From Opitutaceae bacterium (lineage in GTDB: Bacteria; Verrucomicrobiota; Verrucomicrobiia; Opitutales; Opitutaceae), in contig JAUSID010000264.1 of NCBI GenBank assembly GCA_030648295.1, positions 1-64,000 of the forward strand: a DNA stretch of 64,000 nt. The letters are read 5' to 3'. Position 1 is the first letter of the stretch, and each line of letters begins with the position of its first letter. The position numbers were made by a program, and so were the translations under genes. The notes below the pieces were generated by a model. It was not told the origin of the DNA. It saw only the letters and a program-made list of their open reading frames with translations, and did no database searches. Below are positions 12,581-49,179 of this stretch, piece by piece.

Positions 12581-12629
12581 AGGAGTCATCATACCGATCA
12601 AGCAACCCGGAACGAAAGAGAACCGTGCA

Positions 12630-13379: not shown

Positions 13380-13413
13380 AACTGTCAAATTGTTCCAGCG
13401 AGGAGATACAAAA

Positions 13414-14960: not shown

Positions 14961-15111
14961 GAAACGCTTTCAGCCGCCAGCCCGGACACGTGCTGATCAT
15001 CGACCCGCATCCGAGAAGTGGAGGCGGGCGCAAGCTGCTGGAGCTTGCGCCCGCGCAGCGCTTCAAGAGACGCCGCGCGGCTGGTTCAGTTACGAACAAC
15101 CTCTCCGTCCC

Positions 15112-16014: not shown

Positions 16015-16823
16015 ACTCGTTCTGTTTGCCAACCCGCGCGGCGCACATGGTCGATCCACCCGCAGGCACCCATCCCGTTGTTGCTCGCGCGATCGCCGTG
16101 GTGGCGTGCCGCGTGCTCGAGGCGGAAATCGTCGCGCTGACACGCGGCGCGACGCACATTGTCCGTCGCGAGAACTTCGAGATGGGCCTGCACGACCAGC
16201 CGACGGCGCTGCGCACCCGGCTCGCGGGCGCGATCGAGCGCGCCGAGGCCGATCCCGCGGTGGAGGCGATCGTGCTCGTTTACGGTCTCTGCGGGCTCGC
16301 GCTTGTCGATCTCGCGCCCCGGCGCTGTACACTCGTCGTGCCACGCGCGCATGACTGCGTCACGCTTTTCCTCGGCAGTAAGGAACGCTACGCGGCGTGC
16401 ATGCAAGCCGATCCGGGACTCTACTGGTATTCACCCGGCTGGAACCGCGACAAACGGGTGCCTGGCCCCGACCGCGAGGCGCAGCTCCGCGCCGCCTACA
16501 CCGAAAAATTCGGTGCCGAGGACGCGGAGTCGCTGCTCGAAATGGAGCGTGAGAGTTTCGCCCAGCACACCGGCGCCGGCTACACCGATCTTGGCCTGCC
16601 CGACGACGAGCAACAGCGCGACTATGCCGCGCGTTGCGCCGCGTCGCTCGGCTGGAGCCTTACCGCGCATCGTGGCGATCCGTCGTTGCTCCGCGATTTG
16701 TTGCACGGGCCGTGGGACGAGGCGCGCTTTCTCGTGGTTCCACCTGGCCAGCGCATCGCGATGTCAGTCGATGCCGCCGTGATGAAGGCCGTGCCGGTCG
16801 CTCCGCCCGGCGCCGCACCGTGA
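16011..16823 (+). CDS. DUF1638 domain-containing protein
   Basis: 270-aa DUF1638 protein. Conserved segments are VYGLCG (about 85), the VPRAHDCVTLFLGSKERY block (about 105) and GLYWYSPGW (about 133). DUF1638 genes occur beside corrinoid methyltransferase, corrinoid protein and RACo genes in methanogens and acetogens; the biochemical role is not settled. The Cys/His residues in the first two blocks could bind metal. Start is GTG at 16011 (overlapping the upstream stop); ATG 16047 is a credible alternative because conservation begins near residue 27. Its stop overlaps the RACo start by 4 bp, so translation is probably coupled. Confidence 0.85.
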   Translation: MNSFCLPTRAAHMVDPPAGTHPVVARAIAVVACRVLEAEIVALTRGATHIVRRENFEMGLHDQPTALRTRLAGAIERAEADPAVEAIVLVYGLCGLALVDLAPRRCTLVVPRAHDCVTLFLGSKERYAACMQADPGLYWYSPGWNRDKRVPGPDREAQLRAAYTEKFGAEDAESLLEMERESFAQHTGAGYTDLGLPDDEQQRDYAARCAASLGWSLTAHRGDPSLLRDLLHGPWDEARFLVVPPGQRIAMSVDAAVMKAVPVAPPGAAP

Positions 16824-18263
16824 GCCAGCCGCCATCCATCCATGTGCAATGGCCTGACGGCGCGTCGACGCTCCCGCTGCCCGTCGCGCACCACGATGGC
16901 GCGACGCTCGCCGATCAACTCGCCGACGCCGGCCACCCGCTCAATACCCGCTGCGGCCGGCACGGACTTTGCGCCGGCTGCTCCGTGCAGCTCGTGGCGG
17001 GGAAATTCCTCGGCCGTGATGGCACCGAGGCAGTCGCGCCCGCCGAGTTCAAGGCCTGCCAGGGCCGGCTCGCACCGGACGCCGACGCGATGATCGCTGT
17101 TCCGTCGCGCTCGCTCGCGACGCACCGGCCGCAGGTCGTCACGACATTCAAGGTCGGCGTGCCGGTCGCGGACCAGCCGCTCGTGCCTGTCGTTCCCGGC
17201 GAGAGCGATCACGGGCTCGCGATCGACATCGGCACGACCACGGTCGTGGTTTCGCTGATCGATCTTCGCACGGGCAGCATCGTGCGCGAAGAGGCGTCGC
17301 TCAACCGCCAGATCGAGTTCGGCGACGACATCCTCACGCGTATCCAGCTCGCCGGTCAGCCGGGCAAGCTCGCCGCTCTCCGCGACGCCATCGTCCTGCG
17401 CACACTCGCACCACTAATCGAAAGCGCGTGCGTCGGCGCGGCCATCGCGCCAACCCGGCTGGTCGGCGCAACCGTCGCGGGCAACACGACGATGCTCCAC
17501 CTGCTCACCCGCACCGATCCTACGCCGATGGGCATCGCGCCGTTCCGCGCCGCGTTTCTCGGGCACCGCGTGCTGACCGCCGCGGAAATCGGCCTTCCCA
17601 CTCCTCCGCCGGCCATGCCCGTCCACCTGCTGCCGGGCATCAGTGCCTATGTGGGCGCCGATCTCGTCGGCGGGCTGCGTATGCACGGGGCTCAACCACT
17701 GCGACAAACCCAGCCTGCTCGTGGACATCGGCACGAACGGCGAGATTCTCCTCATGCATCGTAGACGGCTGCTCGCCACGGCGACCGCGGCCGGCCCGGC
17801 ATTCGAGGGCGGCCGGCTCGCCCGTGGCACGCGCGCCGTGGCCGTCGCCGTCGCCCATGTGCATTTCGACAGCGATTTTCCGCCTGCGCTTGAGGTGATT
17901 CCCCCTGCAAGGGGCATCGTGGGTCTCTGTGGTTCGGCCTACGTCGATTTTCTCGCGCAGGGCCGGCCGGATCTCGTTGCTCGAGCCCACAGGCCGGATT
18001 TCCCAATCGGCCTGGCGGATGCTGCCGGCCGAACATCAGCATCATTGCGGCACCACGCGATCGAAAGCGGATTGCTGCCGGGTTTTCGGCCGGAGCAAAT
18101 CGACGTTGTCGGCAACACCGCGCTCGGCGGCGCCTGGCTCGCATTGATCGACCGCACCGTGCTGCCGGAAATGATTGCGGCAAGCACGGCCGCCGAGGTG
18201 GTCGAACTGAACCTCGAACCCGGATTCGAAGACACGTACATCGATCACCTCGCGCTGCCATGA
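16820..18263 (+). CDS. Reductive activator of corrinoid proteins (RACo/DUF4445 type), one frameshift
   Basis: ATP-dependent protein that re-reduces inactive Co(II) corrinoid to Co(I). GTG start at 16820 in a GTGA overlap. Residues about 1-85 form a 2Fe-2S ferredoxin domain with CGRHGLCAGC and a later Cys (KACQG). The ASKHA ATPase-like half starts at AIDIGTTTVVV (about 135), with AGNTTMLHL and, in the second frame, LLVDIGTNGEI and AAGPAFEGG. The frame breaks at the GGGG run 17687-17690: removing one G restores an uninterrupted reading (MHGLNHCDKP into LLVDIG) to the stop at 18261-18263. Restored length is about 480 aa, shorter than the roughly 600 aa of studied RACo proteins. The break may be an assembly error or a young mutation. 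Confidence 0.88.
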
Positions 18264-19594
18264 ACCGCGCCATCGCAGATGCCGACATTTTTCCTGGCGT
18301 CCTCGCGGCAGCGCAGTTCGACGCGCTGGCGGTGCGGCATCGTTGCGCCACCGGGCTCAACCTGGGCGCAATCGATGCCAACGGTACGCTCCTCCGCGGC
18401 CGGGGCGAGCGGGGCGCATGCGTGCGCGACGAAGCATGCCGGCCGTTTCGCGCGCAGGCCATTGCGGAGGCCGCGTGCTGGGGCGAACCGTGCGTCCTGT
18501 GCTGCGCCTGCAATCGCGCGCTCTGGGCCGTCCCGGTGACGCAGAACCAGCGCGTCTGCGGCGGACTGCTCGTCGCCGGTGTCGCACTGCACCGCCCACG
18601 GCGAGCCGGCTCGCTCGACCGGAAAATCCTGCGCGCCTGCCGCGTCCTGCTCGACCTTGCTACCGAGCACAATCTCACCAACGCCGCGCAGCTCGCGGAG
18701 CGCCGCCAGTTCGCCCACCGCGAGCGCGAGAAAGCCGAGGCGATGCACGCGTTGAAGGGCCGGCTGCACGACGACATCCGCAGCACCTACCTGCACGAGG
18801 AGCCGGCGCTCCTCGCGGCCATCCGCCGAGGCGAACGCCCCGAAGCACGGCGCATCCTCAACCGCGTGCTGGTCGGCATCTACGCCGCCGGCGAGTCGCA
18901 CACCGCGTTGCTCAAGAGCCTCGCGCTCGAACTCGTCGTCATGATGACTCGCGCCGCGGTGCAGGCCGGCGGCAACCCGGAAAAAATCCTCGGGCTGAAC
19001 TTCCAGTCGCTCACCGCGCTCGCCCGCGTGACTGACCAGGAGACGCTCGCGCCCTGGCTGTGCGACATGCTCGAGCAGCTCATCGACGCGATTCAGGCGA
19101 ACACCCGCCGGCCCAACTCCGTGCAGCTCGTCCGCGCGCTCGAGTTCATGCAGGAGCACCTCGCGGACGAACTCGCGCGCGAGGACGTCGCCCGCGCGGC
19201 CGGGCTCTCGCCGAGCCACTTCTCGCATCTGATGCGGGCAAGGACGAACTGGTCGTTCACCGAATTGCTCGCCCATCTCCGGATCGATCGGGCCTGTCAT
19301 CTTCTGGCGCACACCGAACACCCGCTGGCAAGCATTGCGCAGGATTGCGGCTTCAGCGACCAGAGTTACTTCACGCGGGTCTTCCGCAAGCGCACGGGCC
19401 AGACGCCGGGCGACTACCGGGAGGGGAGAGGGTCGGCGGAGCACGGCCGTGACGCAGGACCACGTCGCGATGCGGCTCCGGTAAACATCCTCGGGCCGAG
19501 CACCAAAGTCCTAAACAAAAGCACCGGAGTCCAAGCGCCGGGCCGTCGTTTCATGCTAGGGTCTGCGGTACCCAATCATCATGACCACGCTTGA
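18260..19594 (+). CDS. AraC family regulator with PocR sensory domain
   Basis: 444 aa. Residues about 8-165 fit the PocR domain, which contains Cys-rich segments (ACVRDEACRPF, PCVLCCACN) and senses small ligands such as diols or C1 substrates. A helical linker follows. Residues about 290-395 are the AraC DNA-binding double helix-turn-helix, ending in FSDQSYFTRVFRKRTGQTPGDYRE. The last ~45 residues are not part of the family and come from the repeat/rearrangement region. The ATG overlaps the RACo stop (ATGA). PocR-AraC regulators often sit beside corrinoid methyltransferase genes, so this is the likely local activator (inference). Confidence 0.88.
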   Translation: MNRAIADADIFPGVLAAAQFDALAVRHRCATGLNLGAIDANGTLLRGRGERGACVRDEACRPFRAQAIAEAACWGEPCVLCCACNRALWAVPVTQNQRVCGGLLVAGVALHRPRRAGSLDRKILRACRVLLDLATEHNLTNAAQLAERRQFAHREREKAEAMHALKGRLHDDIRSTYLHEEPALLAAIRRGERPEARRILNRVLVGIYAAGESHTALLKSLALELVVMMTRAAVQAGGNPEKILGLNFQSLTALARVTDQETLAPWLCDMLEQLIDAIQANTRRPNSVQLVRALEFMQEHLADELAREDVARAAGLSPSHFSHLMRARTNWSFTELLAHLRIDRACHLLAHTEHPLASIAQDCGFSDQSYFTRVFRKRTGQTPGDYREGRGSAEHGRDAGPRRDAAPVNILGPSTKVLNKSTGVQAPGRRFMLGSAVPNHHDHA

Positions 19595-19640
19595 ACTGTT
19601 ATCCCAAGTCGTCGGTGCCGGGAAAGCGAAAGACGCCAGG
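19387..19640 (+). repeat. Direct repeat copy 1: araC 3' end plus corrinoid-gene 5' end
   Basis: The end of the AraC gene, the intergenic DNA and the first codons of a corrinoid-protein gene recur at about 24440-24640. The best conserved part is 19506-19620 versus 24498-24620, including the shared block AAAGTCCTAAACAAAAGCAC and the start region around the ATG at 19581 (24580 in copy 2). The two copies flank the metF-mtrH-amidohydrolase-folD segment. Confidence 0.85.
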
Positions 19641-19658
19641 GACATCGCGATGTCATGA
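19581..19658 (+). pseudogene. Truncated corrinoid-protein gene (first 25 codons)
   Basis: MTTLELLSQVVGAGKAKDA... is nearly the same as the first 19 residues of the intact corrinoid protein at 24580. It then runs into unrelated residues and stops at 19656-19658. The stop overlaps the ATG of the methylene-THF reductase gene, so the remnant may now act only as a translational leader. Confidence 0.85.
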
Positions 19659-21241
19659 TCGATTTGCGATCCAACCTGCGGTTGAAGGAAATCCTCTCGG
19701 AAACGGATCGTTTTCCGATCGGGGTCGAGTTGGTTTCCACGCGCGGTACCATGACGCAAACGCAAACGCTGAAAACCCGGAGTTTTTCAGCAGACCTGAC
19801 GCATAGCCCGCGAGTTGCTTGGGTGTCGATCACTGATAATGCCGGGGGAAATCCGCAACTCGCCCCCATCGCCTTGGGCACGCCGATTCTGTATGCCGGG
19901 AAAGAGGTGGTCATTCATCTGACGTGCAAAGATATGAACCGTTATGCGCTGGAAAGCCAACTCTGGCTGCTGGCCAGTCAGGGGTTTCATAATATTTTGG
20001 CGTTAACCGGAGATTACCCGATCGAGAGTTTTGCAGGGCGCGCCAAGCCGGTCTTCGACATCGATTCCGTCGCGTTGTTGACCATGATGGAGAAGATGAA
20101 TGAGGGGCTGGAAGTCACCTCTGGCAGCGCCAAAACCCAGACGACGCTCGATGCGACCCATTTTTTTGCCGGCGCGGTGGCGAGTAATTTCAAATTCCAT
20201 GAGAACACCCTGCTGCCACAGTATTACAAGTTGGAAAAAAAGATTAAAAGCGGGGCGAAATTCATCATCAATCAGATCGGCTTCGATTCCCGCAAGGGCC
20301 ACGAACTGCTCGAATACCTCCGACTGCGTCAACTCGATCACCTCCCGGTGATTGGCAACGTCTATGTATTAAGTCCTTTCGTAGCGCGCCTGTTCAATCA
20401 AATGAAAATTCCGGGCGTTATCCTCACGGATGAGCTCAACGGAATCTGTCAAAAGCAGGGCGCTTCCCCCGATAAGGGCAAGAGGTTTTTCCACGAATTT
20501 GCCGCGAAGCAACTAGCGATCTATCGGGGACTCGGTTACAGGGCGGGCTACTTGGGCGGGGTTCACAGCTACGCGGCAATCGAAGAAATCCTTGAGTTGG
20601 AAAAATCCTTCGCCTCGGATGATTGGAAACTATTTGCCCGGGAAATCCTGTTTTCCCGCCCCGGTGAATTCTTCCTTTTTGAACAAGATAAAGATACCGG
20701 CCTGTCTCGTCCGGGCGAAGTGAATCGGGAGTGGAAGAAAGGCCTGCCCGAAAGGCATACCAACAAAAATGTCACCTTGGGCTACCACCTCTCGAAGCAC
20801 GTTCATTCGTTGATGTTCGAAAAAGGAAAAGGCCTTGCGCCACTGGCCGAAAAGATCTGCCAAAAAGCAAAGGATCCCGGCCAAGGCCCGCCCTGGATGC
20901 GCTTCATCGAGCATCTCTCAAAATCGGTCCTGTTTTCCTGTCAGGATTGCGGCGATTGCTCTTTGGGGGAGACCGCTTTCCTGTGTCCCGAATCGCAGTG
21001 CGCGAAAAATCAGCGCAATGGCCCCTGCGGCGGAACGCGGGACGGAAAATGCGAGGTCTTTGACTATGAGTGCATTTGGGCGCGGGCCTATGACCGCATG
21101 AAATACGAGGGGAAATCCGAACAGCTGCTCGATCATGCCCCCGTCATCCAGAATCAGGGGCTGCGCGGAACATCGAGTTGGGCCAATTTTTGGCTGGGAA
21201 AAGATCATGCTTCAAAAAAATCCGCGGCGAAATCCTCATGA
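19655..21241 (+). CDS. Methylenetetrahydrofolate reductase fused to MetV-type zinc domain
   Basis: 528 aa. Residues about 20-310 are the FAD-binding MTHFR (MetF) TIM barrel (IGVELVSTRG, ILALTGDYP, FIINQIGFD). Residues about 415-500 form the MTHFR C-terminal/MetV domain with the Cys-rich pattern SCQDCGDC, LCPESQCAKN and GPCGG, which binds zinc in acetogen enzymes. It interconverts methyl-THF and methylene-THF; next to a demethylation system the oxidative direction is plausible. Here MetF and MetV are one chain, whereas acetogens often encode them separately. The ATG overlaps the upstream mini-ORF stop and the 3' end overlaps the next ATG. The base composition of 19655-24400 is visibly less GC-rich than its flanks. 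Confidence 0.9.
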   Translation: MIDLRSNLRLKEILSETDRFPIGVELVSTRGTMTQTQTLKTRSFSADLTHSPRVAWVSITDNAGGNPQLAPIALGTPILYAGKEVVIHLTCKDMNRYALESQLWLLASQGFHNILALTGDYPIESFAGRAKPVFDIDSVALLTMMEKMNEGLEVTSGSAKTQTTLDATHFFAGAVASNFKFHENTLLPQYYKLEKKIKSGAKFIINQIGFDSRKGHELLEYLRLRQLDHLPVIGNVYVLSPFVARLFNQMKIPGVILTDELNGICQKQGASPDKGKRFFHEFAAKQLAIYRGLGYRAGYLGGVHSYAAIEEILELEKSFASDDWKLFAREILFSRPGEFFLFEQDKDTGLSRPGEVNREWKKGLPERHTNKNVTLGYHLSKHVHSLMFEKGKGLAPLAEKICQKAKDPGQGPPWMRFIEHLSKSVLFSCQDCGDCSLGETAFLCPESQCAKNQRNGPCGGTRDGKCEVFDYECIWARAYDRMKYEGKSEQLLDHAPVIQNQGLRGTSSWANFWLGKDHASKKSAAKSS

Positions 21242-22164
21242 ATCCTCCTGAACTTCACGTCATCGGCGAACTGATGAACAATTCCTACGGGCGCGCCCGG
21301 AAAGCGTGGCAGGCACGCCATGTCGCCGGCTACCAGGAGTTGGCCAAAATTCAGACGGATCTGGGAGTCTCCTTCTTGACCCTCAACGTGGACGGCACCC
21401 AAAGGCTCTCCGTCACGCTCCAGGAGATGCTCGACTTTCTGCCTCACGTCATTCCGGCCATTCAGGAAGTGACCGATGTGCCCCTCAGTTTTGACAATCC
21501 AAACGTCGCCTTTCATCGCGAATGTCTCAGGCACTACAATCCGGCGAAATCCAAGGGTCGCGCCATCCTTAATTCAATTTCAATTTCTCGAAATAATATT
21601 GCCGAAATGATTCAGCTGGTACGGGAGTACAACCTGAACGTCATCGTCATGGCTTCCGAGTGTTTGCTGCCGGACGGCTCCCATGGTTCGGCCAGAACCG
21701 TTGGGGATATATTGAACGCGACAAAGCATTTTGTCTCCATGCTTCGCGAGCAGGCCGGCATTGCCAATGAGCGCATCATCATCGATCCCGGGCTGGCGCC
21801 CGTTGCTTCTGACACCAGCGGGCTGATCAATCTCTGCCTCGATTCGATCCGGGCGATTCGTTCTGAAAAGAATCTGGCAGGTATTCATATCTCGGTCGGA
21901 CTTTCAAACTTCGCCATTGGCGCCCCCAAGCCGATGCAAGTTCCTCTGGAACGAGCCTTCCTGGCCCTGGCGATGGAAGCAGGCCTGGACTTTGCGCTCT
22001 CAAATCCCGAGAAAAATACGGTCCCGATGTCCCAGGACGAGAAGCTCGTTCAAGATTTAATCCGTATTCTTGAGGCGGGTAGAGTTCGATTAGGCGAGAC
22101 CCAGGAAGATGCGGGATACCGACAACTGGATGCATTGATGGAACTTTGGGGCGATCGGAATTGA
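21238..22164 (+). CDS. Pterin-binding methyltransferase (MtrH/AcsE-like, DHPS fold)
   Basis: 308-aa TIM barrel of the pterin-binding family that includes AcsE and MtrH, which move a methyl group between a corrinoid protein and tetrahydrofolate. Segments visible: VIGELMNNSYG at the N-terminus, LTLNVDG (about 45), VPLSFDNPN (about 80, the Asp of the pterin pocket), ILNSIS (about 110), IIDPGLAPVA (about 181) and GLSNFAIGAP (about 218, pterin-binding Asn). Start ATG 21238 overlaps the upstream stop (ATGA). It links the corrinoid protein at 24580 with the folate genes on both sides. Confidence 0.9.
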   Translation: MNPPELHVIGELMNNSYGRARKAWQARHVAGYQELAKIQTDLGVSFLTLNVDGTQRLSVTLQEMLDFLPHVIPAIQEVTDVPLSFDNPNVAFHRECLRHYNPAKSKGRAILNSISISRNNIAEMIQLVREYNLNVIVMASECLLPDGSHGSARTVGDILNATKHFVSMLREQAGIANERIIIDPGLAPVASDTSGLINLCLDSIRAIRSEKNLAGIHISVGLSNFAIGAPKPMQVPLERAFLALAMEAGLDFALSNPEKNTVPMSQDEKLVQDLIRILEAGRVRLGETQEDAGYRQLDALMELWGDRN

Positions 22165-22186
22165 TTCGTTCACAGCAGCCAAAGCG

Positions 22187-23473
22187 ATGAATCCAAACAT
22201 ACTGGCCCATTTACGAGTCACCCCGGCAAATCCGACACGTTGGATTGTGGTGGGGCAATTGCTGGATGCGAAAAACCGGCGCATGCTAAAAAATGCCCAC
22301 TTGATCTTTGATCAAGACCACATTTTGCATGTGGGCTCCGCAGCACCGGAGGCGGCGATTCTAAGCGGGCAAAGGACTCCCGATTTGACCCTTCTTGAAG
22401 CTACGGCGATGCCCGGATTGATCGAAGGTCACTCACATATTTTTCTCGAAGGCTCGGAGTTGGCTGCCGAAAAGCGGGCCGACTACCAGAAGCAAGATCC
22501 CCAAACGCTTTATCAGAATGCCGAAACTCGCCTTCGCACCCTGGCGCGCTTGGGAATTATCGCCATGCGCGACGGAGGGGACAAAGATCAGGTTGGTCTG
22601 CGCTTGAGCAAGCTTACCGCCGCCAAAGATTGCCTGCCGTTCACCGCCAAAGTCTTCAGTCCTGGGGCAGGTATCCACCGGCAGGGACGCTACGGTGGTT
22701 TTTTTGGAAAACCATTGGAAGACCACGCCAATATTGAGAGCTGCGTGCAAGCGCGGGTTGCCGCAGGCGCGGATCATATCAAGATCGTTCCCACCGGAAT
22801 TATTAATTTCGCCAAAGGCCTGGTCGTCGCCAAACCCCAGTTCAGCATAGAAGAAATTCAACAGTTTAAGCAGGCGGCACACGCGCAGCAAAAGCATCTC
22901 ATGGCCCATGCTTCGGGTGATATCGGCGTAGGGTATGCCATTGAGGGCGGAGTTGACACCGTGGAACATGGTTTCTTTATTACCGACGATCAATTGGCAG
23001 GAATGCGCGACAAAGAAATTGCGTGGGTGCCGACCTTTACGCCCGTGCAGGAACAGTTGGATCATGCCGACCTCATGGGCTGGACCGGCGAAACGCTGGA
23101 CCACTTGAGCAGGATTCTCGAAAACCACGCGTGCAGTCTTCAAAAAGCAATGGCGCTGGGCGTCAACGTGCTCGTGGGCAGTGATGCCGGATCGTGTGGC
23201 GTCGCTCACGGGACCGGGTTGTTTTACGAGATGGAACTGCTCGAAAAAGCGGGGATGCCCACCCTCAATATTCTCTGTCAGGCGACGCATGGAAACAATA
23301 ATGTGTTAACCGGTAAACAGCCTTACGGCTCGCTCGAAAAAGGTTTTAGGCCGCGATTTATCGTGACGGGAAACAATCCGCTGGAGACGGTAAAGAACCT
23401 TTCTCGCGAGCGGTTGGTGGTGTTTGATGGCGCGGCTGAAAGCAGCGCCACGGTCAGTCTGGAAAATTTGTAA
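22187..23473 (+). CDS. Amidohydrolase family protein (imidazolonepropionase-like)
   Basis: 428-aa metal-dependent hydrolase. The metal-site signature is complete: HxH in GLIEGHSHIF (about residue 83), Lys in HIKIVPTG (about 197), His in LMAHASG (about 237), His in VEHGFF (about 259) and Asp in VGSDAGS (about 325). Known relatives are imidazolonepropionase and prolidase-like enzymes that cleave C-N bonds. Its place between pterin methyltransferase and FolD suggests a substrate linked to one-carbon metabolism, for example a cyclic amide or formyl/formimino compound, but this is inference. No signal peptide. Confidence 0.85.
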   Translation: MNPNILAHLRVTPANPTRWIVVGQLLDAKNRRMLKNAHLIFDQDHILHVGSAAPEAAILSGQRTPDLTLLEATAMPGLIEGHSHIFLEGSELAAEKRADYQKQDPQTLYQNAETRLRTLARLGIIAMRDGGDKDQVGLRLSKLTAAKDCLPFTAKVFSPGAGIHRQGRYGGFFGKPLEDHANIESCVQARVAAGADHIKIVPTGIINFAKGLVVAKPQFSIEEIQQFKQAAHAQQKHLMAHASGDIGVGYAIEGGVDTVEHGFFITDDQLAGMRDKEIAWVPTFTPVQEQLDHADLMGWTGETLDHLSRILENHACSLQKAMALGVNVLVGSDAGSCGVAHGTGLFYEMELLEKAGMPTLNILCQATHGNNNVLTGKQPYGSLEKGFRPRFIVTGNNPLETVKNLSRERLVVFDGAAESSATVSLENL

Positions 23474-23499
23474 AACGCATAGCTCGACAGCTAAAAGCA

Positions 23500-24513
23500 A
23501 TGCCCGCCAAATTACTTAAAGGAACGGAAATCCGGGAAGAAATTCTTGCCGAGATCAAACAAGAGGTTGAGGCAATCAAGGCCGCGCACGGCGTCGTGCC
23601 CGGCCTGGTCACCATCCTCGTCGGCAGCAATCCCGCGTCGCTTTCCTATGTTTCCCTGAAGATTGAAACCGCGCACAGACTCGGCTTCAAAGAAATCCAG
23701 GACAACCAACCGCCGGATATTTCCGAAGCGGCGCTGCTGGCCTTGCTCGAGAAATACAAACAGGACGACACTCTTCACGGCATCCTCGTCCAGCTGCCTT
23801 TGCCGCCCCATATCAATGAGAAGAAGGTGCTCAACGCCATTGATCCCGACAAGGACGTGGACGGCTTCCATCCCGTCAACGTGGGACGGTTGTTGATTGG
23901 CGGCAGCGAGGTGAAATTCCCGCCCTGCACGCCAGCAGGAATTCAGGAGATGATCCGGCGTTCCGGAGTCGAAACCAGCGGAGCGGAAGTGGTCGTCGTC
24001 GGGCGCTCCAACATCGTCGGCAAACCCATCGCGAACATGCTCATGCAAAAAGGCCCGGGCGCGAATGCCACGGTGACCGTCGTGCATACCGCCACCCGTG
24101 ATCTCGCGGCCCATTGTCAGCGGGCCGATATTCTCATCGTCGCCGCCGGAGTTCCGGGACTGGTCAAGCCGGAGTGGATCAAGCCGGGCGCGTGTGTCAT
24201 TGATGTCGGCGTGAACCGGGTGGGAGAAAAGATCAGCGAAAGCACGGGCCGGAAGGTCGCCATTTTGAGGGGCGATGTGGATTTCGACGAAGCCGCAAGA
24301 ATCGCCGGTTTTATCACGCCCGTTCCCGGTGGCGTTGGCCCTATGACGATTGCCATGCTCATGCGGAACACCCTCAACTCGCTGAAATTCAAGTTGGGAA
24401 TCCAGCCGGGAGCCGCTAGCAGCCGCAGGCTGACGCGAGGCCTTTTCCAGCGCGCGGGCCGGACGCCCGGCGATTACCGGGGCGCCCCGCAGGCACCCGC
24501 ACTAAAGTCCTAA
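23500..24513 (+). CDS. folD: Bifunctional methylene-THF dehydrogenase/methenyl-THF cyclohydrolase, with foreign tail
   Basis: 337 aa; residues 1-300 are a complete FolD. Visible: SYVSLKIETA with the YxxxK catalytic pair (about 50-54), LVQLPLPPHI (about 98), DKDVDGFHP (about 120), VVVGRSNIVGKP (about 164, NADP loop) and ITPVPGGVGPMTIA (about 275). It oxidises methylene-THF to methenyl- and formyl-THF. Family length is about 285-300. The last ~33 residues (SRRLTRGLFQRAGRTPGDYRG...) are not FolD: they match the end of the AraC regulator at 18260, so the true stop was lost when folD was joined to a repeat copy. Confidence 0.93.
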   Translation: MPAKLLKGTEIREEILAEIKQEVEAIKAAHGVVPGLVTILVGSNPASLSYVSLKIETAHRLGFKEIQDNQPPDISEAALLALLEKYKQDDTLHGILVQLPLPPHINEKKVLNAIDPDKDVDGFHPVNVGRLLIGGSEVKFPPCTPAGIQEMIRRSGVETSGAEVVVVGRSNIVGKPIANMLMQKGPGANATVTVVHTATRDLAAHCQRADILIVAAGVPGLVKPEWIKPGACVIDVGVNRVGEKISESTGRKVAILRGDVDFDEAARIAGFITPVPGGVGPMTIAMLMRNTLNSLKFKLGIQPGAASSRRLTRGLFQRAGRTPGDYRGAPQAPALKS

Positions 24514-39215: not shown

Positions 39216-39728
39216 CTGGCTCATCCATTGTCGGCCGTACCACGCGTGGTCGAAGGGGAAAATCGAAAAACGGTTCCAGGGATGCCAGTCGCAGTGTCTG
39301 CCGACGCTCGTGTTTGATCCCGTGCACTCGCTCGAGGAGTTGAACCGGCGGTTTTGGAAATGGGTGGAGACCGACTACAACCAGCGTCCCCACACGGCGC
39401 TCGCCGGCGAATCCCCTCCGCGCAACGCTTCGCGCGGCTGGGCACGTCGCTGCGGCTCTTGGAGCCGAATGCCGACCTCGATCGATTGTTCTTCATGCAG
39501 GTGAAGCGTCGCGTGCGCAAGGACGCGACGTTCTCCCTCGGGGCGGAGTGCTGGGAGGTCGCCGCGCATCTGCGCGGTCAAATCATCCTCGCGCGTTTCG
39601 ATCCCATCACGTTCGCGCGGGTCGAAGTCTGGCTCGGCGAGCGGTTCGTCGGCCTGGCGGTCAAGTGCGACAAGCAGCGCAACCCGCGAATCTTTAGAAC
39701 GAACGACTATGACCGCGAAGTCTACTGA
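39216..39728 (+). pseudogene. Truncated DDE (rve/Mu C-type) integrase
   Basis: The reading RPYHAWSKGKIEKRFQGC (about 39232) carries the last catalytic Glu of retroviral-type integrases, followed by FWKWVETDYNQRPHTALAGESP. Near 39418 the frame shifts and continues as RFARLGTSLRLLEPNADLDRLFF and a Mu-transposase C-terminal beta-barrel (DATFSLGAECWEVAAHLRG) to the stop at 39728. The N-terminal half with the first two Asp residues is missing. The gene overlaps the ATPase start by 20 bp, the normal layout of such transposons. Confidence 0.75.
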
Positions 39729-40558
39729 GGGTCCCTCGCTGGACATCGCGCTCAAAACCCTCTGGGGCGCGAGCCGCTGGCCGGGCATGGCCGATGGTGA
39801 AGTCGTGCTGTCGCACCCGTCGTGGCAAGAGGCGTATCGACGGCACGATCAGTTGGCCGGCGTGCGGGCGAGCAGCATCCTGCATGGCCCGAACGGGGTC
39901 GGAAAAAGCAAGCTGCTCCATCACTGGAGCTCACGTCTCAGCGAGAAGCAATATCGGTTGCTGCGGGTGGCGCATAGTTCGCGTGATGGGATCCGATCTG
40001 CTCCGTCACCTGGTCAAGCTGGGCGGCAAGGAGCCGCTGTATCGCCGCGGCGACAACGTGCTCCTCCTAGCCGAACTGTGGCAGGACTGGGCGCCGGCGT
40101 GGCCGATCTTGATCGTCGAGGAAGCGCAGGATCTCGCCGTCGCCTCGCTGGAGGAACTGCGACTGCTCACGTGCGCGCGATCGGACGCGACCCCGCCGTT
40201 CTCGCTGCTCCTCTGCGGCGACGAGGAGCTGCTCGGGCGGCTCGAGCTGAACGTGAACAAGCCGGTCGTGTCGCGTCTGGGGTTTTGCTTTCACCTCTCG
40301 CCCTGGCCGGCGGAAAGCTTCTCCGCGTACCTGCATCAGCGACTCGCAGAAGTCGGGATCCACACCAGTCCGTTCGAGCCCGCTGCTGAAACGCTGCTGT
40401 TGCAGGCGGCACAGGGCATCCCCCGCACGCTCAACGCGCTTTTGCAGCGGGCGATGGAACAAGCCGCGTTGGCGAACCGTCGCGTCGTCACCTCTGGCGA
40501 CGTCCAGCTCGCGTTGGACACGCTGCCGTGGCTCGCGCGCGCACGGCCCACCGGATGA
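39709..40558 (+). pseudogene. ExeA/TnpB-type AAA ATPase of the transposon, frameshifted
   Basis: Start at ATG 39709. Walker A is HGPNGVGKSK (about residues 63-72). At about 39985 the frame changes; the second frame gives GSDLLRHLVKLGG, Walker B PILIVEEAQDL, a sensor LLLCGDEELLGRL, and the lid RVVTSGDVQLALDTLPW. The joined protein is about 280 aa, the usual length for transposition-helper ATPases (TniB/IstB/ExeA group). Confidence 0.8.
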
Positions 40559-40565
40559 CGCCGCC

Positions 40566-40850
40566 ATGCCGAATTGCGACGAAACCATCGATGCGATGGG
40601 CGACACGGTGCGGCAGCTGCTCGGCACAGTGCAGCGCCGGTTTTATGCCGCGCAATCTCCACGCGACCACGCCGAAGGACGGGCAAGCTTCCACCGCGAT
40701 AGACGGATGTTGCTGTACGCACTCACGTGGCCCGCGGTGTGGCTCGAACGCCGCGGGCTCACGTGCTCGTCGACGCGTTACCACGACCTCGTCGCCGATC
40801 GCCTCGCAGAAATCGCGTTGCACGGCGATCCGGCGCGTTATGGCGCGTAA
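40566..40850 (+). CDS. Hypothetical protein of the decayed transposon
   Basis: 94 aa, helical and Arg-rich, no family recognised. It begins 7 bp after the ATPase stop and its 3' end overlaps the next ORF by 11 bp. Position suggests an accessory gene of the integrase/ATPase element. Confidence 0.5.
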   Translation: MPNCDETIDAMGDTVRQLLGTVQRRFYAAQSPRDHAEGRASFHRDRRMLLYALTWPAVWLERRGLTCSSTRYHDLVADRLAEIALHGDPARYGA

Positions 40851-41091
40851 CTTTCCCACCTATCTGCTGAAATGCCTCCAGGATTGGTTTCAGCACCACG
40901 GCGACGAGTTTTACGACGAACTCAAGCACATCCGCAACGCGCTCGACCAAGTGCTCGCATCGGACCGCTTCGCTGTCGCGGTGCAGCGTGACGCGCGGCA
41001 CGTCGAGCTGCTCGCTTCCGTCCATCGCCTGATCCGGGCGCAGCGTGAAAAACGACAGAAGAGCGACGACCGTCAGCTGTCGCTGTTCTGA
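40840..41091 (+). CDS. Hypothetical helical protein of the decayed transposon
   Basis: 83 aa, starting inside the end of the previous ORF. Mostly amphipathic helix with a basic C-terminus (REKRQKSDDRQLSLF). Not identified. It precedes an array of short repeats at 41138-41221 that could be the transposon end, so it would be the last gene of the element. Confidence 0.45.
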   Translation: MARNFPTYLLKCLQDWFQHHGDEFYDELKHIRNALDQVLASDRFAVAVQRDARHVELLASVHRLIRAQREKRQKSDDRQLSLF

Positions 41092-41137
41092 GTATCGTCG
41101 CGATTACCGTGGTGCCGCCAATCACTGCTTGCTGAAA

Positions 41138-41221
41138 CGTCACGCTTTGCACGGCGCGCCGTGAACAGCGTGACGTAGCGCCGACTTCGTCACGATGAAA
41201 AGTCCCTGGAATAGCGTGACG
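41138..41221. repeat. Four alternating 9-bp sites, likely transposon end
   Basis: CGTCACGCT at 41138-41146, AGCGTGACG at 41167-41175, CGTCACGAT at 41188-41196 and AGCGTGACG at 41213-41221. The last two of each orientation differ by at most one base. Spacing of starts is 29, 21 and 25 bp and orientation alternates. Integrase/ATPase transposons carry several transposase-binding sites at their ends, so this may be the right end. Confidence 0.6.
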
Positions 41222-41520
41222 CGGAACAACAAGGTGCGAACGGCGCGAATGGCCATGGGCGGGTGAAAAGAGGCATGCAGGAGACCGACAGCGTGGAGCT
41301 GCTGCAGCCACTGAGCGTCGGCGACATCGGTCTTGCGACCGGGAACGTTCTTGAGGTGCCGGGCGTTGACCAGGCAGATCTCGATGCCGGCGTCCTCGAG
41401 CATGGTGTAGAGAGGAATCCAATACACGCTGGTCGCCTCCATCGCGACCGTGCCGATGCCGCTCTCCTTGAACCACGCGACCAGCGCCAGCAGGTCCTGT
41501 CCAAGCTGGGACAGGATTTG
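41215..41520 (-). pseudogene. Fragment of an IS110-family transposase
   Basis: The minus strand reads LVAWFKESGIGTVAMEATSVYWIPLYTML and ARHLKNVPGRKTDVADAQWLQQLHAVGLL, the N-terminal DEDD domain of IS110 transposases with its Glu (AMEAT) and Asp (KTDVADA) residues. Start and C-terminal half are missing. It ends against hipB in a short inverted repeat at about 41492-41513. Confidence 0.75.
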
Positions 41521-41777
41521 GCGACCGCGCGGCGCAAGCGCCAGCTCACCGTCGCCATGATGGTGGAGCGGATGGGCGTGGCCACGAACACCTATCGCCG
41601 CGTGGAGAAAGGCGATCCGTCCATCAGGGTGCGTATACGATGGCGCTCTTGGTTTTGGGTTTCGGCAACGCGTTGGGCGATCAGATCGATCCCAAGCGCA
41701 ATGATGTCGGCCTGCAACCGGACGAAGCTCGGCTCCCGAAACAGGTACGGGTGAAAAAGGCACCGACCTCGCTGTGA
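41491..41777 (+). pseudogene. HipB-like antitoxin (HTH), frameshifted
   Basis: LGQDLATARRKRQLTVAMMVERMGVA and TYRRVEKGDPSI form an XRE/Cro helix-turn-helix as in HipB. Near 41622 the frame changes, and in the new frame GAYTMALLVLGFGNALGDQID and LPKQVRVKK complete the typical ~90-aa HipB. The 5' end joins the IS110 fragment, so promoter and start are lost. Stop TGA 41775-41777 overlaps the hipA GTG. Confidence 0.75.
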
Positions 41778-42930
41778 AGCACGCCCTCCAGGTTTATATC
41801 GGCGACGAATCCTGGCTGGCGGCGGCGGGTCGCTTCGCGCTCGAGCCGATCTTCCGCTCGTGGCAGGTACGCAGTTTCATAAGACGCCGGCGGGGTTCGT
41901 GTTTCACGCGGCGATTGCCGACACGGAACCGGATGGCTGGGGCCGGCGCGTGATTTTGAGAGACCACGCCAGGCGCCGGCAAAAAGCGCGGCGCGCGGGA
42001 GGCGACGCGGGATCGGCTCAACTGAATGCGGTCGATTTTCTCTTGGCTGCGGACGACGGCAGCCGGGTGGGCGCGCTGCGGTTTTGTGACGAAGCTGGCG
42101 CGTTTCAGCGCGCGGCCGAACCCGGCCCGGCGCACCGCTCTACCCTTGGTGGAATTGGCCCACCTGATGAGCGCCTCGCACGCGGTCGAAACCGAGACGG
42201 AAACCGCCGCGGACCTCGCCTACCTGTGCGGGCGCGGCACATCGCTCGGCGGCTTGCGACGGAAATGCACGGTGGTCGATGACGACGGCCTGCTCGCGAT
42301 TGGAAAATTTCCGAGCGTACAGAGGACGAACGCGCCGTCACCAAGGGTGAGGTGCTGGCGATGACGCTCGCCAAGACGGCCGGCCGGCCTGATGGTCGCG
42401 GCGGCGCGGCTCGTCGACAGCGATGGCGTGCCCGTGACGCTGGTCCGCCGCTTCGATCGCACGCTCGACGGCAAGCGGTTCATGTATGTCTCGGCCGCTA
42501 CCCTGCTCGGCGTCGAGGCAAGCGAGTCCCAAGAGCACGTCTACACCGAAATCGTCGATGCGCTCCGCATGCACGGCGCCGCAGCGCAAGCCGACATTGA
42601 GGAGCTCTGGCGACGCATGGCATCGACCTCAATCCGTTTCCGGATCGCGCACGCGAATTGAAAACGTGGGTGTCGGCGGACAGCGGGCCAGAGGCAACGA
42701 TCGATGCGCTGATGCCCGTCATCGCCTTTTTCCGAGTCTCCGCCCGCCGCGCGAAAGAGATGCTGCGTGAGGTGGAGCGCGCCGTGGCCGGGTGGCGGAA
42801 GATCGGGCGGGCGCTGGGGATGTCGAATCGGGAGTTGGGGGAGTTCGCCAACGCATTTGAGCATCCCGAACGCTGCCGCCGCCCAAAAGCGTTTGGGCTG
42901 ACCGGCTGCTCCGAATGTTTTGCGTGGTAG
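41774..42930 (+). pseudogene. HipA-like toxin kinase, several frameshifts
   Basis: GTG at 41774 overlaps the hipB stop. Pieces of HipA appear in changing frames: VYIGDESWL at the start, FHAAIADTEPDGWGRRVILRDHARR (about 41900), LAYLCGRGTSLGGLRRKCTV with the P-loop-like kinase segment (about 42220), VTLVRRFDRTLDGKRFMYVSAATLLG (about 42430) and the C-terminal ARRAKEMLREVERAVAGWRKIG (about 42745). The catalytic Asp region between 42550 and 42660 is damaged. At least three frame changes make it inactive. Confidence 0.75.
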
Positions 42931-43090
42931 CTACAGTCACGGCCGAGGCTTAAACTCCTCACGACCACGGCCGCGATGCGCGCCCAAAACAGGAAGAAAA
43001 ATTCAGAAAATTCGGCAACTATTTCACACAAAAAAGCAGAAAAGTGTGAACTGCTGTTGTAACACTTTCAAAGCCAGCAACTCTATGATT

Positions 43091-43131
43091 CGTCCCGAAC
43101 GTAGCGCTCTACCAGGCTAAGCTACGCCCCG
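43091..43131 (-). pseudogene. 5' half of tRNA-Pro(CGG), truncated at the anticodon stem
   Basis: The minus strand carries a tRNA acceptor strand (CGGGGCG), D-arm (GCTTAGCCTGGTAGAGC), anticodon 5' stem and loop TTCGGGA (anticodon CGG), then only two bases of the 3' stem. No T-arm or 3' acceptor follows. The cut at the anticodon stem next to mobile DNA suggests an attachment site used by an integrated element. Confidence 0.8.
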
Positions 43132-43270
43132 ACATCACTGCGACAGCCGAATGCTCCGGCTGAGTCGTTCAAGGAGTCGCACGGCTACCGTTGGCGCAAG
43201 CAGAAAATCCGGTTTTGTCCGCCGCGTCGCGAAAAGATTCGGGCGGCCGGACGCGCCGATCACCACCCAT

Positions 43271-43297
43271 AAAAAACCCCGGACAAGGCGTCCGGGG
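43271..43297 (-). terminator. Rho-independent terminator of the Ton operon
   Basis: On the minus strand an 8-bp GC stem (43290-43297 with 43277-43284), 5-base loop and six T residues (43271-43276). It lies 21 bp past the last gene of the exbB-to-coiled-coil group. Confidence 0.9.
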
Positions 43298-43317
43298 TGG
43301 GAGAGGGTTACCCCACT

Positions 43318-43863
43318 TCAGCTGCGGGGCGCCGCGGGCAGGGGCGGCGGTGCCGGCGGCCGGACGAGCGAGCTGGCCTGCGCGCGGCGGGCGATCATTT
43401 CCACCATCCGCTGCGATTCGAGTTCGGCATTGCGCCGGGCCACCTTCGCGAGTTCGACCTGCTTCGCCAGATCGAAAGCCTCGCGCGTGAGCCGGTCGCG
43501 TTCCTTATGCAGCCGGTCGAGTTCGACCTCGAGCGCCTGGGCGCCTTTGGCGGCCTTGTCGGCGTCGGCGCGGGCCGTGTCGATCTCCGCCTTCAGGTCG
43601 GCGTCGATCTTCGCCTGCTTGGCGCGACGATCCTCCTCCTTCTTCTTTTCCTCGGCTTCGCGCTCGGCCTGCTTTTTCGCCGCCTCGTCGCGGGCCTGCT
43701 GCTCCGCCTGCTCCTTCTGCTGTTTCTCGTCCGCGATCTTTTTTGCGAGTGTCGTGGCGCGGGTATGCTCACGCTGCGCGGCCTCCTTCTGGTGGGTGAA
43801 GTAAACGACGAGGAATAGCCCGAGCAAAACGCTGGGGACGGCCAAATAGATCCACTTTTTCAT
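43318..43863 (-). CDS. Membrane-anchored coiled-coil protein of the Ton operon (2)
   Basis: 181 aa from ATG 43863. One N-terminal membrane helix (about residues 5-22) is followed by a long charged coiled coil rich in Glu/Lys/Ala (about 25-165), then a Pro-rich tail (RPPAPPPLPAAP). It should sit in the inner membrane and reach into the periplasm. No family is recognised. Last gene of the operon, before the terminator. Paralogue-like to the next upstream gene in layout. Confidence 0.75.
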   Translation of the reverse strand: MKKWIYLAVPSVLLGLFLVVYFTHQKEAAQREHTRATTLAKKIADEKQQKEQAEQQARDEAAKKQAEREAEEKKKEEDRRAKQAKIDADLKAEIDTARADADKAAKGAQALEVELDRLHKERDRLTREAFDLAKQVELAKVARRNAELESQRMVEMIARRAQASSLVRPPAPPPLPAAPRS

Positions 43864-43885
43864 CTTTGAGTTGTCTGGAGGGGAA

Positions 43886-44449
43886 TTACTTCTTGGCCGC
43901 GGCGGCGGCGGCAACGGCGGCGGCAGCGGCGGCCCGGGCCGCGTCCTCGGCCGCCTTGTCGGCGGCGGCGATACGCTCGAGCACTCCGCTGAGACTCTGG
44001 GTGTTGGCCTCGGCTTTCTTCACGAACTCACGTTGGAACTTCTGCTCATCGACGGACCGTTTCTTGTCCTCCTCGATCTTCGCGAGCTCCTTCTTGTTCT
44101 CTTCGACTTCCTTCGAGAGACGTTTGACCTGGTCCTGGAATTTGCGCGCGTCCTCGCGCGCCTTGACGCGGGCCTGTTGGGCCAGTTCGCGCTGCTCCTT
44201 CTCCTTCGCGTCACGTTCCTCGCGCGCCCTCTTCTCCTTCTTGCGCTTATCCTGGGCCTCGAGCGCCGCCCTCACGGCTCCGGCCTTGGCGAGGTTTTCC
44301 TGCCGGATCTTCTCGTTCTTCTGCTCGATCCTGGCCTTATCGGCCGCCACCAGCTTTTCCTCGTAGCCGGAGGCGTATTTCCAATATACGGCGGCGAACA
44401 GCACGAGACCTGCCACAGGGGCAATGACATACACGTAGTTTTTCTTCAT
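43886..44449 (-). CDS. Membrane-anchored coiled-coil protein of the Ton operon (1)
   Basis: 187 aa. N-terminal helix (about 6-24), long Lys/Glu/Ala coiled coil (about 30-165) and an Ala-rich end. Same plan as the following gene; possibly they pair. It follows the TPR gene with a 16-bp gap. Such coiled coils could bridge the periplasm or bind the TPR protein, but no function is known. Confidence 0.75.
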   Translation of the reverse strand: MKKNYVYVIAPVAGLVLFAAVYWKYASGYEEKLVAADKARIEQKNEKIRQENLAKAGAVRAALEAQDKRKKEKRAREERDAKEKEQRELAQQARVKAREDARKFQDQVKRLSKEVEENKKELAKIEEDKKRSVDEQKFQREFVKKAEANTQSLSGVLERIAAADKAAEDAARAAAAAAVAAAAAAKK

Positions 44450-44465
44450 TGGAGATGGACGGGGA

Positions 44466-45950
44466 TCACAAGGTTGTGTCCGGTTTCTTCTTCTTCTTCG
44501 CTTCTTCGGCTTCCTTGTTCTTTCGGGTTTCTTCGCGATCTCTCACCGTGTCTTCGATGTGTTTCTTGAGATTCACCATCTGCTGGTCCTTCGCGAATTC
44601 GGGATGCTTGGCCGCCTCGGTGATGGCGCGCAACGCCTCAACCCAATCGTCGAGCTCCATCGAGGTATAGGCGATCAGCTGATACGCCACCTGCGGTTTC
44701 TCGATGCTGCCCTTCTTGAGCGCGCTCTGGTAGAACTGGCGCGCTTCGCGCGTCTTCTCCAGCTGGCGGTAAATCTCGCCGATGTGCAGATCGATCATCC
44801 CCTCCTTGGGGAACAGCTTCGTCGCTTCCTTCAGCGCCTCGATGGCCTGAAGCTCCTTGTTCGCCTGCTGGTAGTAGGACCCGAGCAGCCGCCAGTTTGC
44901 CAGCGTCGACTCGATCGCGCCGTTCTTCAGGCCGGCGTGGAGGATGTCCGTCGCCTTGCCGAACTGGCCGGCGGTCAGGTAGATCGTGACCAGGTTGTAG
45001 TTGTCCTTCGGCGTCTTCATGTAGCCGAGGGCTTGGGCCCGCTCGAGTGAGTTGATTGCCCGCACGTACAACTCGCGTTTTCGGAGTTCGTTCGTCTCAG
45101 TCGAGGCGAGATTCAGATAGGTCGCCATCACCAGCGGCCAGTAATCCTTCTTTTGCGGGAACTTCTTGACCAGCAACTCGAGCAGGTCGGCCGAGCGCAC
45201 CATGTCGTTCTCCTGCTGATAAACGGCGAGCAGCAGCATGTACCAGCCTTCCTTGGGCTGGAGTTGCGACTGCATGCCGCGATCGATCACGGCACGCGCC
45301 TGCCGCAGGATATCCGGGTTGATATTCTTTTGGTCGCTCACGGCCTGTTGGTACAGCAACTGGGCGTAGAACATCTGCGTCTCGACTGACGGCTTCGGAT
45401 TGTTCTCCAGATGCCGCTTCAAATTGGCGGCCGCACGCGCGATGTACTCGCGCTGTTTGGGCGGATCCTTGATGCCGGCCGCTTCGCCAAAGAGGATCTG
45501 GGCGAGATACAGGACAATCTCGTTGATCTCCTTCGGGTCGATGTAGTGGTACTGGTCGTTCAGCTTCACGACCTGCTCCCAAATTGGGATTGCGGCGGCA
45601 TACTTGTCCATGCCGAGCATGATCTTGGCCTGGATGTTCAGGAGGAACACCTGATCGTAGCTGCCGGCCGGGGCGGTCGCCAGCACGCCTTGGATCAAGG
45701 CCAGCATTTGGTCGTAGGGAATCGGCTTTTGCTGCTGGAGCGGACCGAGGTTTTTCAGCGCCTCGCTCGTCTTTTCGCCGAGGCTGTGCGGCTGCTTTTC
45801 CTTTTGCTGCGATGCCGCCGGCGGTGGCGGCGGCTGGGACCGCCCCCTCTGTCCGCGCTGCGCGGCTCGCATGGCCGGCGCTGCGACCAGCGCAAGGGCG
45901 AGCGCCAGTCCTGCGGAGAGACGCAAAGTCGATGTGGTTTTCACGGACAA
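44466..45950 (-). CDS. Secreted TPR-repeat protein of the Ton operon
   Basis: 494 aa. Signal peptide (about 8-30), a Pro/Gln-rich spacer (about 35-50), then TPR-like helical pairs from about 70 to 460 (examples at IMLGMDKYAAAIPIWEQVV and GEIYRQLEKTREARQFYQSALKKG) and a highly charged Lys/Glu tail. It starts directly after tonB (adjacent base), implying coupled translation. TPR proteins beside ExbD/TonB genes are known in Bacteroidetes and Verrucomicrobia Ton clusters; a scaffold role is likely. Confidence 0.85.
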   Translation of the reverse strand: MSVKTTSTLRLSAGLALALALVAAPAMRAAQRGQRGRSQPPPPPAASQQKEKQPHSLGEKTSEALKNLGPLQQQKPIPYDQMLALIQGVLATAPAGSYDQVFLLNIQAKIMLGMDKYAAAIPIWEQVVKLNDQYHYIDPKEINEIVLYLAQILFGEAAGIKDPPKQREYIARAAANLKRHLENNPKPSVETQMFYAQLLYQQAVSDQKNINPDILRQARAVIDRGMQSQLQPKEGWYMLLLAVYQQENDMVRSADLLELLVKKFPQKKDYWPLVMATYLNLASTETNELRKRELYVRAINSLERAQALGYMKTPKDNYNLVTIYLTAGQFGKATDILHAGLKNGAIESTLANWRLLGSYYQQANKELQAIEALKEATKLFPKEGMIDLHIGEIYRQLEKTREARQFYQSALKKGSIEKPQVAYQLIAYTSMELDDWVEALRAITEAAKHPEFAKDQQMVNLKKHIEDTVRDREETRKNKEAEEAKKKKKPDTTL

Positions 45951-46607
45951 TTACTCTTCGTTAAGGGTGAACACGATGGGCACCTGCATGTGGGTGTTCA
46001 CATTCCGGCCGCTCTTGCGGCCCGGCTTGAACTTCCATTTGCCGACGGCCTGCACGGCGGAGGCCTCGAACTCGCGTTGTGAGGAACGGATCGCATACGC
46101 GTTCTGGACGTCGCCGTTGGTGTCGACGATGAAGTCGACCACCACCTCGCCCGCGATGCCGGCACGCCGCATTTCAAAGGGATACTGCGGCCGGGCCTGA
46201 AACCGCGGCACGGGTTGCTGGTCGAGTTTGGAGATGTCGAACACTTCCATGCCGCGGAAGCGGGACATGTCACGGTTCTCGGGAATCGCGATGATGCCGG
46301 CAGCCGGTTTGACGTTTTCCGGCGGCGGCGGCTGGATTTTCTGGACAAACGCGTCGGGCGGCACGGCCTGCGGCACGTCGGTCTGCATCGGCGGCGCGAA
46401 GTCCATCGGCTTGATTGGCTCGTCGGTTGCCTCGACCACTTCCGGCTCCTCGGGCTCGAGCTTCGGCATCTCGATCAACTCGATGGTGGGGAGCGGCGCT
46501 TCCTTCTTCTTCTCCGGCGGTCGCGATGGGAAGAACTTGTTTCCAAACAGCACCCCGCCGTGCAGCAGCAGGGAAATGACCAAACCGATGATGAGATCGC
46601 GGCGCAT
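45951..46607 (-). CDS. tonB: TonB family protein
   Basis: 218 aa. N-terminal membrane helix (about 8-24), a Pro/Glu/Lys-rich spacer (about 28-110), and the TonB C-terminal domain (about 130-215: PQYPFEMRRAGIAGEVVVDFIVDTNG, WKFKPG). It transmits the proton-motive force to outer-membrane receptors such as that at 3022-6228. Follows exbD after a 7-bp gap. Confidence 0.92.
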   Translation of the reverse strand: MRRDLIIGLVISLLLHGGVLFGNKFFPSRPPEKKKEAPLPTIELIEMPKLEPEEPEVVEATDEPIKPMDFAPPMQTDVPQAVPPDAFVQKIQPPPPENVKPAAGIIAIPENRDMSRFRGMEVFDISKLDQQPVPRFQARPQYPFEMRRAGIAGEVVVDFIVDTNGDVQNAYAIRSSQREFEASAVQAVGKWKFKPGRKSGRNVNTHMQVPIVFTLNEE

Positions 46608-48706: not shown

Positions 48707-48780
48707 TGGCTGCCCGACTAGGAGTCGAACCTAGACAGAACGAGTCAGAGTCGTTCGTGCTACCATTACACTATCGGGCA
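48707..48780 (-). tRNA. tRNA-Gln (anticodon CUG)
   Basis: Full cloverleaf on the minus strand: acceptor TGCCCGA with TCGGGCA, D-arm, anticodon loop CTCTGAC (CTG), T-loop TTCGACT. CCA is encoded at 48707-48709 (as TGG on the plus strand). Confidence 0.92.
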
Positions 48781-48867
48781 TCGGAAAAGGATTTGACCTG
48801 CGGCGCGCCCGGCTGTCGGGCCGAGGCTCCCGGCCGGGAATCCGCTCCCGCGGCGGGAGCGCAGAGG

Positions 48868-48942
48868 TGGAGCCGGCGATGGGATTCGAACCCGCAACCG
48901 CCTGTTTACAAAACAGGTGCTCGACCATTGAGCTACGCCGGC
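48868..48942 (-). tRNA. tRNA-Thr (anticodon UGU)
   Basis: Cloverleaf with acceptor GCCGGCG/CGCCGGC, anticodon loop TTTGTAA (TGT), T-loop TTCGAAT. CCA encoded at 48868-48870. Confidence 0.92.
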
Positions 48943-49104
48943 AAGGAGAAGCGCTGCGCCTGCCAAACTTGACTGGGAAAAAACGGGAAGAAAGTGCGCG
49001 TTTGGCCCTCCTTCGCCAAGGCGTCAGAGGGCATCCTGCACTGTCGGAACCTGACTGTGTGAAACAACCAAATGCGCCATCCGTAGCTGCGAAACAGCGC
49101 CGGA

Positions 49105-49179
49105 TGGTGGCTCCCCGGGGACTCGAACCCCGAACCTACTGATTAAGAGTCAGCTGCTCTACCATTGAGCTAGGAAGCC
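49105..49179 (-). tRNA. tRNA-Lys (anticodon CUU)
   Basis: Cloverleaf with acceptor GGCTTCC pairing GGGAGCC (one G-U), anticodon loop CTCTTAA (CTT), T-loop TTCGAGT. CCA encoded at 49105-49107. Confidence 0.92.

Follow-up and report, generated by a model that had tools for sequence, protein, structure and literature searches.

What cut the proline tRNA gene whose 5′ half lies beside a TonB operon in the genome of an Opitutaceae bacterium, and what became of the rest of it? The window, that is, the whole stretch of 64 kb analysed here, is the first part of contig C56 (123,591 bp) of a draft genome of 9.1 Mb in 294 contigs, estimated to be 96.6% complete with 4% contamination. C15, C32, C33 and C110 are other contigs of this host genome (G000), the other G numbers denote the genomes of relatives and L numbers denote loci. 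The data allow us to regard the cut gene as very probably the scar of a large island that integrated at tRNA-Pro(CGG) with reversed polarity, supplying the 5′ half of the gene.

Cut and intact copies of tRNA-Pro(CGG)

Nucleotides (nt) 1–41 of tRNA-Pro(CGG), CGGGGCGTAGCTTAGCCTGGTAGAGCGCTACGTTCGGGACG, were found on the minus strand at window 43131→43091, followed by unrelated DNA. The 7-nt anticodon loop TTCGGGA is retained and the break follows two bases later, in the 3′ strand of the anticodon stem; an exact block of 48 bp (GTGATGT plus tRNA nt 1–41) is common to this copy and an intact one on C15:

43091–43131, minus strand: cut tRNA-Pro(CGG), nt 1–41, identical to C15:3907–3947, probably the chromosome's original 5′ half displaced by integration
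43091–43138, minus strand: 48-bp direct repeat with C15:3900–3947 (exact match), the putative attachment-site identity block

A preliminary description of this DNA was thus right that a truncated tRNA-Pro(CGG) stands next to mobile debris and that it breaks at the anticodon loop. ARAGORN called no tRNA-Pro within the 64-kb window, as expected for a gene of which only half is there.

A pattern search showed two exact copies of the tRNA 5′ region genome-wide, the cut one and that at C15:3907; a different proline tRNA gene, on C110 and with the anticodon TGG, gives one further match that has a single mismatch. The only intact tRNA-Pro(CGG) in the host genome, C15:3907–3980, scores as a full tRNA. 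The search for an intact gene elsewhere, suggested in the preliminary description, was therefore successful, and the gene appears to have been rebuilt on C15 rather than lost.

For an empty-site comparison, the flanks of the intact tRNA-Pro genes of relatives were compared with the proteins of C56 and C15. The TonB operon (Ton1), an intact tRNA-Pro and the MBL/PRT genes were found joined in six island-free relatives, each time on a single contig: G002, G005, G006, G008 and G025 belong to the same genus, and G029, a single contig of 6 Mb, to another. In the host genome, the cut half borders on the TonB side and the intact gene on the MBL/PRT/DegP/Prs side, so that at least 47 kb (window 1–43090, an assembly gap and C15:1–3899, i.e., at least 43,090 + 3,899 bp) lie between the two sides. 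The orientation of the intact tRNA and of the displaced fragment, read on the two contigs that carry the two ends, matches the native flanks, and Ton1 is single-copy in the host genome. The corresponding features of the window are:

43318–46607, minus strand: native chromosomal flank with the Ton1, Ton2, TPR and TonB genes, in the same order beside intact tRNA-Pro in relatives
1–43090, no strand: right-hand part of the insertion (empty site in six relatives), which would run past window base 1, across the assembly gap, into C15:1–3899

Conservation of the TonB operon beside tRNA-Pro in relatives also bears out the earlier view of the tRNA as the border between variable DNA and a stable operon. 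Moreover, the bases 5′ of the cut half in the window (ctccttgaacgactcagccg) resemble the native flank in G014 (ctccttgagcgactcagccg), and this likeness to the flank of relatives is absent from the C15 DNA upstream of the intact tRNA, thus indicating that the cut half belonged to the chromosomal gene before the insertion.

Two other signals were noted on this side of the cut. An Rfam match to anti-hemB at 43269–43350 was rejected, as it scored below the gathering threshold and the region is a GC-rich, terminator-like hairpin. A cluster of tRNA-Gln, tRNA-Thr and tRNA-Lys genes at window 48707–49179 has the same order in G022, about 15 kb from the tRNA-Pro of that genome.

The integrase and the proposed integration

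A complete open reading frame (ORF) for a tyrosine integrase of 434 amino acids (aa) lies on the minus strand at C15:2461–3765, its start 142 bp from the 5′ end of the intact tRNA. It matches phrog_1 (1.3e-7), XerD (3e-4) and, below the Pfam cut-off, Phage_integrase (0.006), and its catalytic residues R258, K285, R344, H345 and Y376 are invariant in the alignment with its relatives. This integrase most likely made the insertion, which implies that it would act on the tRNA-Pro site. The debris near the cut most likely did not play that part.

Duplicated or cut 5′ halves beside related integrases were found in five more genomes, at tRNA-Pro again, at tRNA-Ala and at two tRNA-Arg genes. In G047, a tRNA-Arg(CCT) 5′ half (40 nt + 1 bp) is followed by 4.58 kb with the integrase and then by the intact tRNA-Arg, all on one contig; in G321, also on one contig, a tRNA-Arg(CCG) 5′ half (nt 1–41) lies 6.9 kb from the intact gene by the integrase. 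A tRNA-Ala(CGC) 5′ half (42 nt + 3 bp) is on one contig of G342, and the intact gene with the integrase is on another. The closest integrases lie beside cut tRNA-Pro 5′ halves on contig C8 of G264 (59% identity) and on JAUSGG010000126 (52%); an integrase on C75 of G264 (47%) and an N-terminal integrase piece in G017 (about 50%) lie beside intact tRNA-Pro genes. All these related elements break at nt 40–42. As for the individual loci, the complete 4.58-kb element of G047 (L094, C19:2522–7180) has four clear ORFs only, the integrase and three without a family match, one of which contains an HYHYLLNFGG stretch and may be a replication protein. The JAUSGG010000126.1 locus (L126) comes from a metagenome-assembled genome labelled Armatimonadota, which points either to cross-phylum transfer or to a mislabelled or contaminated bin.

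Could an identical truncated tRNA also occur in relatives with no mobile DNA nearby, which the preliminary description would have taken as evidence against an island? No such case was encountered: the cut tRNA-Pro 5′ halves by a legible integrase are element ends. One further half, in G003 (L092, C286:123–161), breaks off at nt 39, exactly where the anticodon loop ends. It lies close to one end of a short contig on which neither an integrase nor TonB genes were recognised, and it was left unassigned; the genome, which is 98% complete, yielded no intact tRNA-Pro(CGG).

The element arm beside the cut tRNA bears inverted motifs:

43020–43054, no strand: inverted TTCACA-type motifs, GCAGTTCACA and inverted TATTTCACA, whose 9-mers recur in related attachment-site arms

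GCAGTTCACA is present in both G264 arms examined as well, and TATTTCACA in the G017 and JAUSGG arms. With 3 of 100 simple shuffles of the nine arms reaching a 9-mer common to three arms, the recurrence is suggestive only, and the motifs may be arm sites of the integrase.

The way in which the island entered can be proposed as follows. The integrase would have recombined the island's attachment site (attP) with the chromosomal tRNA-Pro(CGG) gene, and we infer that the exact crossover fell most likely within the 7-bp anticodon loop. On this view, attP would bear a second version of the tRNA 5′ half, adjacent to the integrase gene. Integration would then leave the chromosomal 5′ half beside the TonB operon (window 43131→43091) and, at C15:3900–3980, fuse the 5′ half of the island to the chromosomal 3′ half, which gives one intact tRNA-Pro. 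The DNA upstream of the rebuilt tRNA would then be supplied by the island, and hence probably its promoter, which would amount to a promoter takeover. One sigma-70-like site (9/12; 0.1 expected) was found 78 bp upstream of the rebuilt tRNA, in DNA that is the element's. The usual island brings a 3′ half with it, and the tRNA gene keeps its original promoter. Judged from the arrangement of the DNA, the polarity here is reversed, the displaced fragment being a 5′ half beside the native upstream flank. At the level of sequence, this reading draws on the cut half, the 48-bp repeat, the empty site, the integrase by the rebuilt gene and the same architecture elsewhere.

Several observations weigh against it. 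The two ends of the island are on different contigs of a draft assembly of the completeness and contamination given above, and it is we who infer that window 1–43090 and C15:1–3899 belong to one island across the gap. The stretch from the tRNA to MBL on C15, about 1 kb, is longer than in most relatives. The cargo scanned resembles ordinary chromosomal genes, so that the island may be fixed or composite.

It is very improbable that C15 and C56 were binned together from different strains or organisms, the cut and intact genes being unrelated. A draft of 294 contigs with 4% estimated contamination would allow it, but Ton1 occurs once, there is one intact tRNA-Pro(CGG), the flanks on the two contigs complement each other as the two sides of a single conserved locus, and the complete architecture is seen on single contigs in G047 and G321. 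Equally, the remains of a transposase, of IS110 and of hipBA that lie no more than 4 kb from the cut might suggest that a transposon, an insertion sequence (IS) element or a rearrangement cut the tRNA and left the fragment as debris. This is very improbable: the break is at the anticodon loop, as in the related elements at other tRNA genes, both ends are marked by the exact 48-bp repeat, and the integrase is beside the rebuilt gene. Finally, a classical island that carried the 3′ half and let the tRNA keep its own 5′ half and promoter is extremely improbable, since, although this polarity is usual (3,760 of the 3,919 islands in Islander have a 3′ fragment; PMC4383910) and most of the integrase's relatives face a tRNA 3′ end, what was displaced here is a 5′ half, which stays with the TonB flank native to the locus, and the intact gene is bordered 5′ by the integrase and 3′ by the native MBL flank.

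Extent and content of the island

The preliminary description had an integrated element ending at the tRNA, which stands, but saw it as a decayed island of 4 kb; 39216–43131 is just the last 4 kb of a far larger insertion. The mobile debris described there is real, as judged by profile matches:

39229–39444, plus strand: remnant of a DDE transposase, the C-terminal part of the integrase core, a passenger (Pfam rve_3, E 1e-4)
39794–40558, plus strand: AAA ATPase of the same transposon-like remnant (Pfam AAA_22, E 5e-5; NCBIfam pepcterm_ATPase, 8e-18, below cut-off)
41140–41763, minus strand: IS110 transposase fragment, DEDD (N-terminal) domain only (Pfam, 8e-13; NCBIfam, 2e-21 over 93 aa, below cut-off)
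41506–41622, plus strand: HipB-type helix-turn-helix of the broken hipBA (Pfam HTH_31, 2e-4, residues 82–120 of ORF 41263–41754)
42392–42661, plus strand: HipA C-terminal piece of the broken hipBA (Pfam HipA_C, 7e-12)

The transposase/ATPase remnant, the IS110 piece and hipBA, which is frame-broken, would be passengers or later insertions.

What is said here of cargo and mobility genes refers to those ORFs that were scanned in window 1–43090, a part of the total. The first 39 kb carry sulfatases, a TonB-dependent receptor, a DDE transposase and a PSD/DUF1552 pair. An apparent corrinoid-dependent methyl-group (C1) cluster was seen at window 8137–24510, with a URO-D-type methyltransferase, a RACo activator, an AraC regulator, MTHFR, an amidohydrolase and FolD. 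Neither conjugation genes nor phage structural genes were recognised in the scanned ORFs of an island that is in part unassembled. Window 1–141, which lies just beyond a sulfatase gene, is identical to the last bases of C32 and the first bases of C33 and looks like an assembly-graph junction inside the island; the left end of C15 has no such overlap partner. Two weak tRNA matches lie at C15:160–310, near the left end of the island. Elsewhere in the host genome, two tRNA arrays on different contigs, C17:296–2101 and C181:25489–27760, agree in scores and order and are apparently near-duplicates.

Polarity within the integrase family

Of the integrase's relatives that have a tRNA close by, the majority, and most of the more distant ones, face the 3′ end of the tRNA, at 36–74 bp, and the fragments near them mostly start in the T-arm. 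Such classical integrases of Verrucomicrobiota (L065, L068, L071, L076) are homologous to the one on C15 (about 25% identity) and likewise lie directly by tRNA genes, whereas the reversed group faces the tRNA 5′ end at 108–142 bp, a spacing that would leave room for a tRNA promoter, and breaks at the anticodon loop. The exception in spacing is the unproven L128 (44 bp), which faces the 5′ end of tRNA-Arg and was left uncounted because no second 5′ half was found in its 15 kb.

A small group shows a third arrangement, in which the fragments are 3′ halves of tRNA-Met and tRNA-Lys and the integrase lies 5′ of the break. The tRNA-Met(CAT) 3′ halves (nt 27–77) at L066, L115, L137 and L203 have their broken end toward the integrase; these loci were rejected as reversed cases, as they combine an integrase on the 5′ side with a 3′ half. 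The locus in G046 (L080) was reclassified for its tRNA-Lys 3′ fragment between the integrase and tRNA-Thr.

A first integrase tree of 29 rows did not settle the matter of a polarity switch. Polarity changed once on a tree of 47 rows and twice on one of 75 rows, which had more 3′-facing members and a long branch, L081; owing to the second change, we do not claim a single switch. None of 500 shuffles gave so low a number in either of these two trees, the exact number of changes being unsure because of the long branches. Within the family sampled, polarity is thus strongly clustered on the integrase tree, and target position in the tRNA gene likewise follows the phylogeny.

Islands with 5′ polarity are a known and rare kind, since 159 of the 3,919 in Islander have a 5′ fragment (PMC4383910), and a reversed element is attributed to Zhao and Williams (2002, J Bacteriol 184:859) where they are cited in PMC6563490. 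The present case resembles these islands in that an intact tRNA shares its orientation with a displaced 5′ fragment, the integrase is within the island and the probable crossover is near the anticodon loop, a recognised subsite; it differs in the host group and may differ in the integrase lineage. No description of this lineage was found in the part of the literature searched. With the archaeal pTN3-like integrases (PMC8371274, which cites Cossu et al. 2017 for them), which belong to different elements, the rebuilt tRNA stands under an element-supplied promoter, as may be the case here. The genes of those suicidal integrases are split by integration, whereas the ORF on C15 is whole and stands beside the tRNA.

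What had looked like a broken tRNA thus becomes a mapped integration event with a likely integrase named. For annotation, the lesson is that a tRNA 5′ half may mark one border of an island and the integrase may have to be sought at the opposite border. As homologous integrases stand on either side of the polarity switch, it becomes directly testable why nearly all islands restore the 3′ half. We tentatively suggest, though with somewhat less than even confidence, that a lineage of tyrosine integrases, mainly in Verrucomicrobiota, departs from its relatives both in its target, the anticodon loop rather than the T-arm, and in the side of the tRNA that it carries, via one or a few switches. At each integration the elements would give Pro, Ala and Arg tRNA genes a new upstream region, and control over how these host tRNAs are expressed may thus fall to the element.

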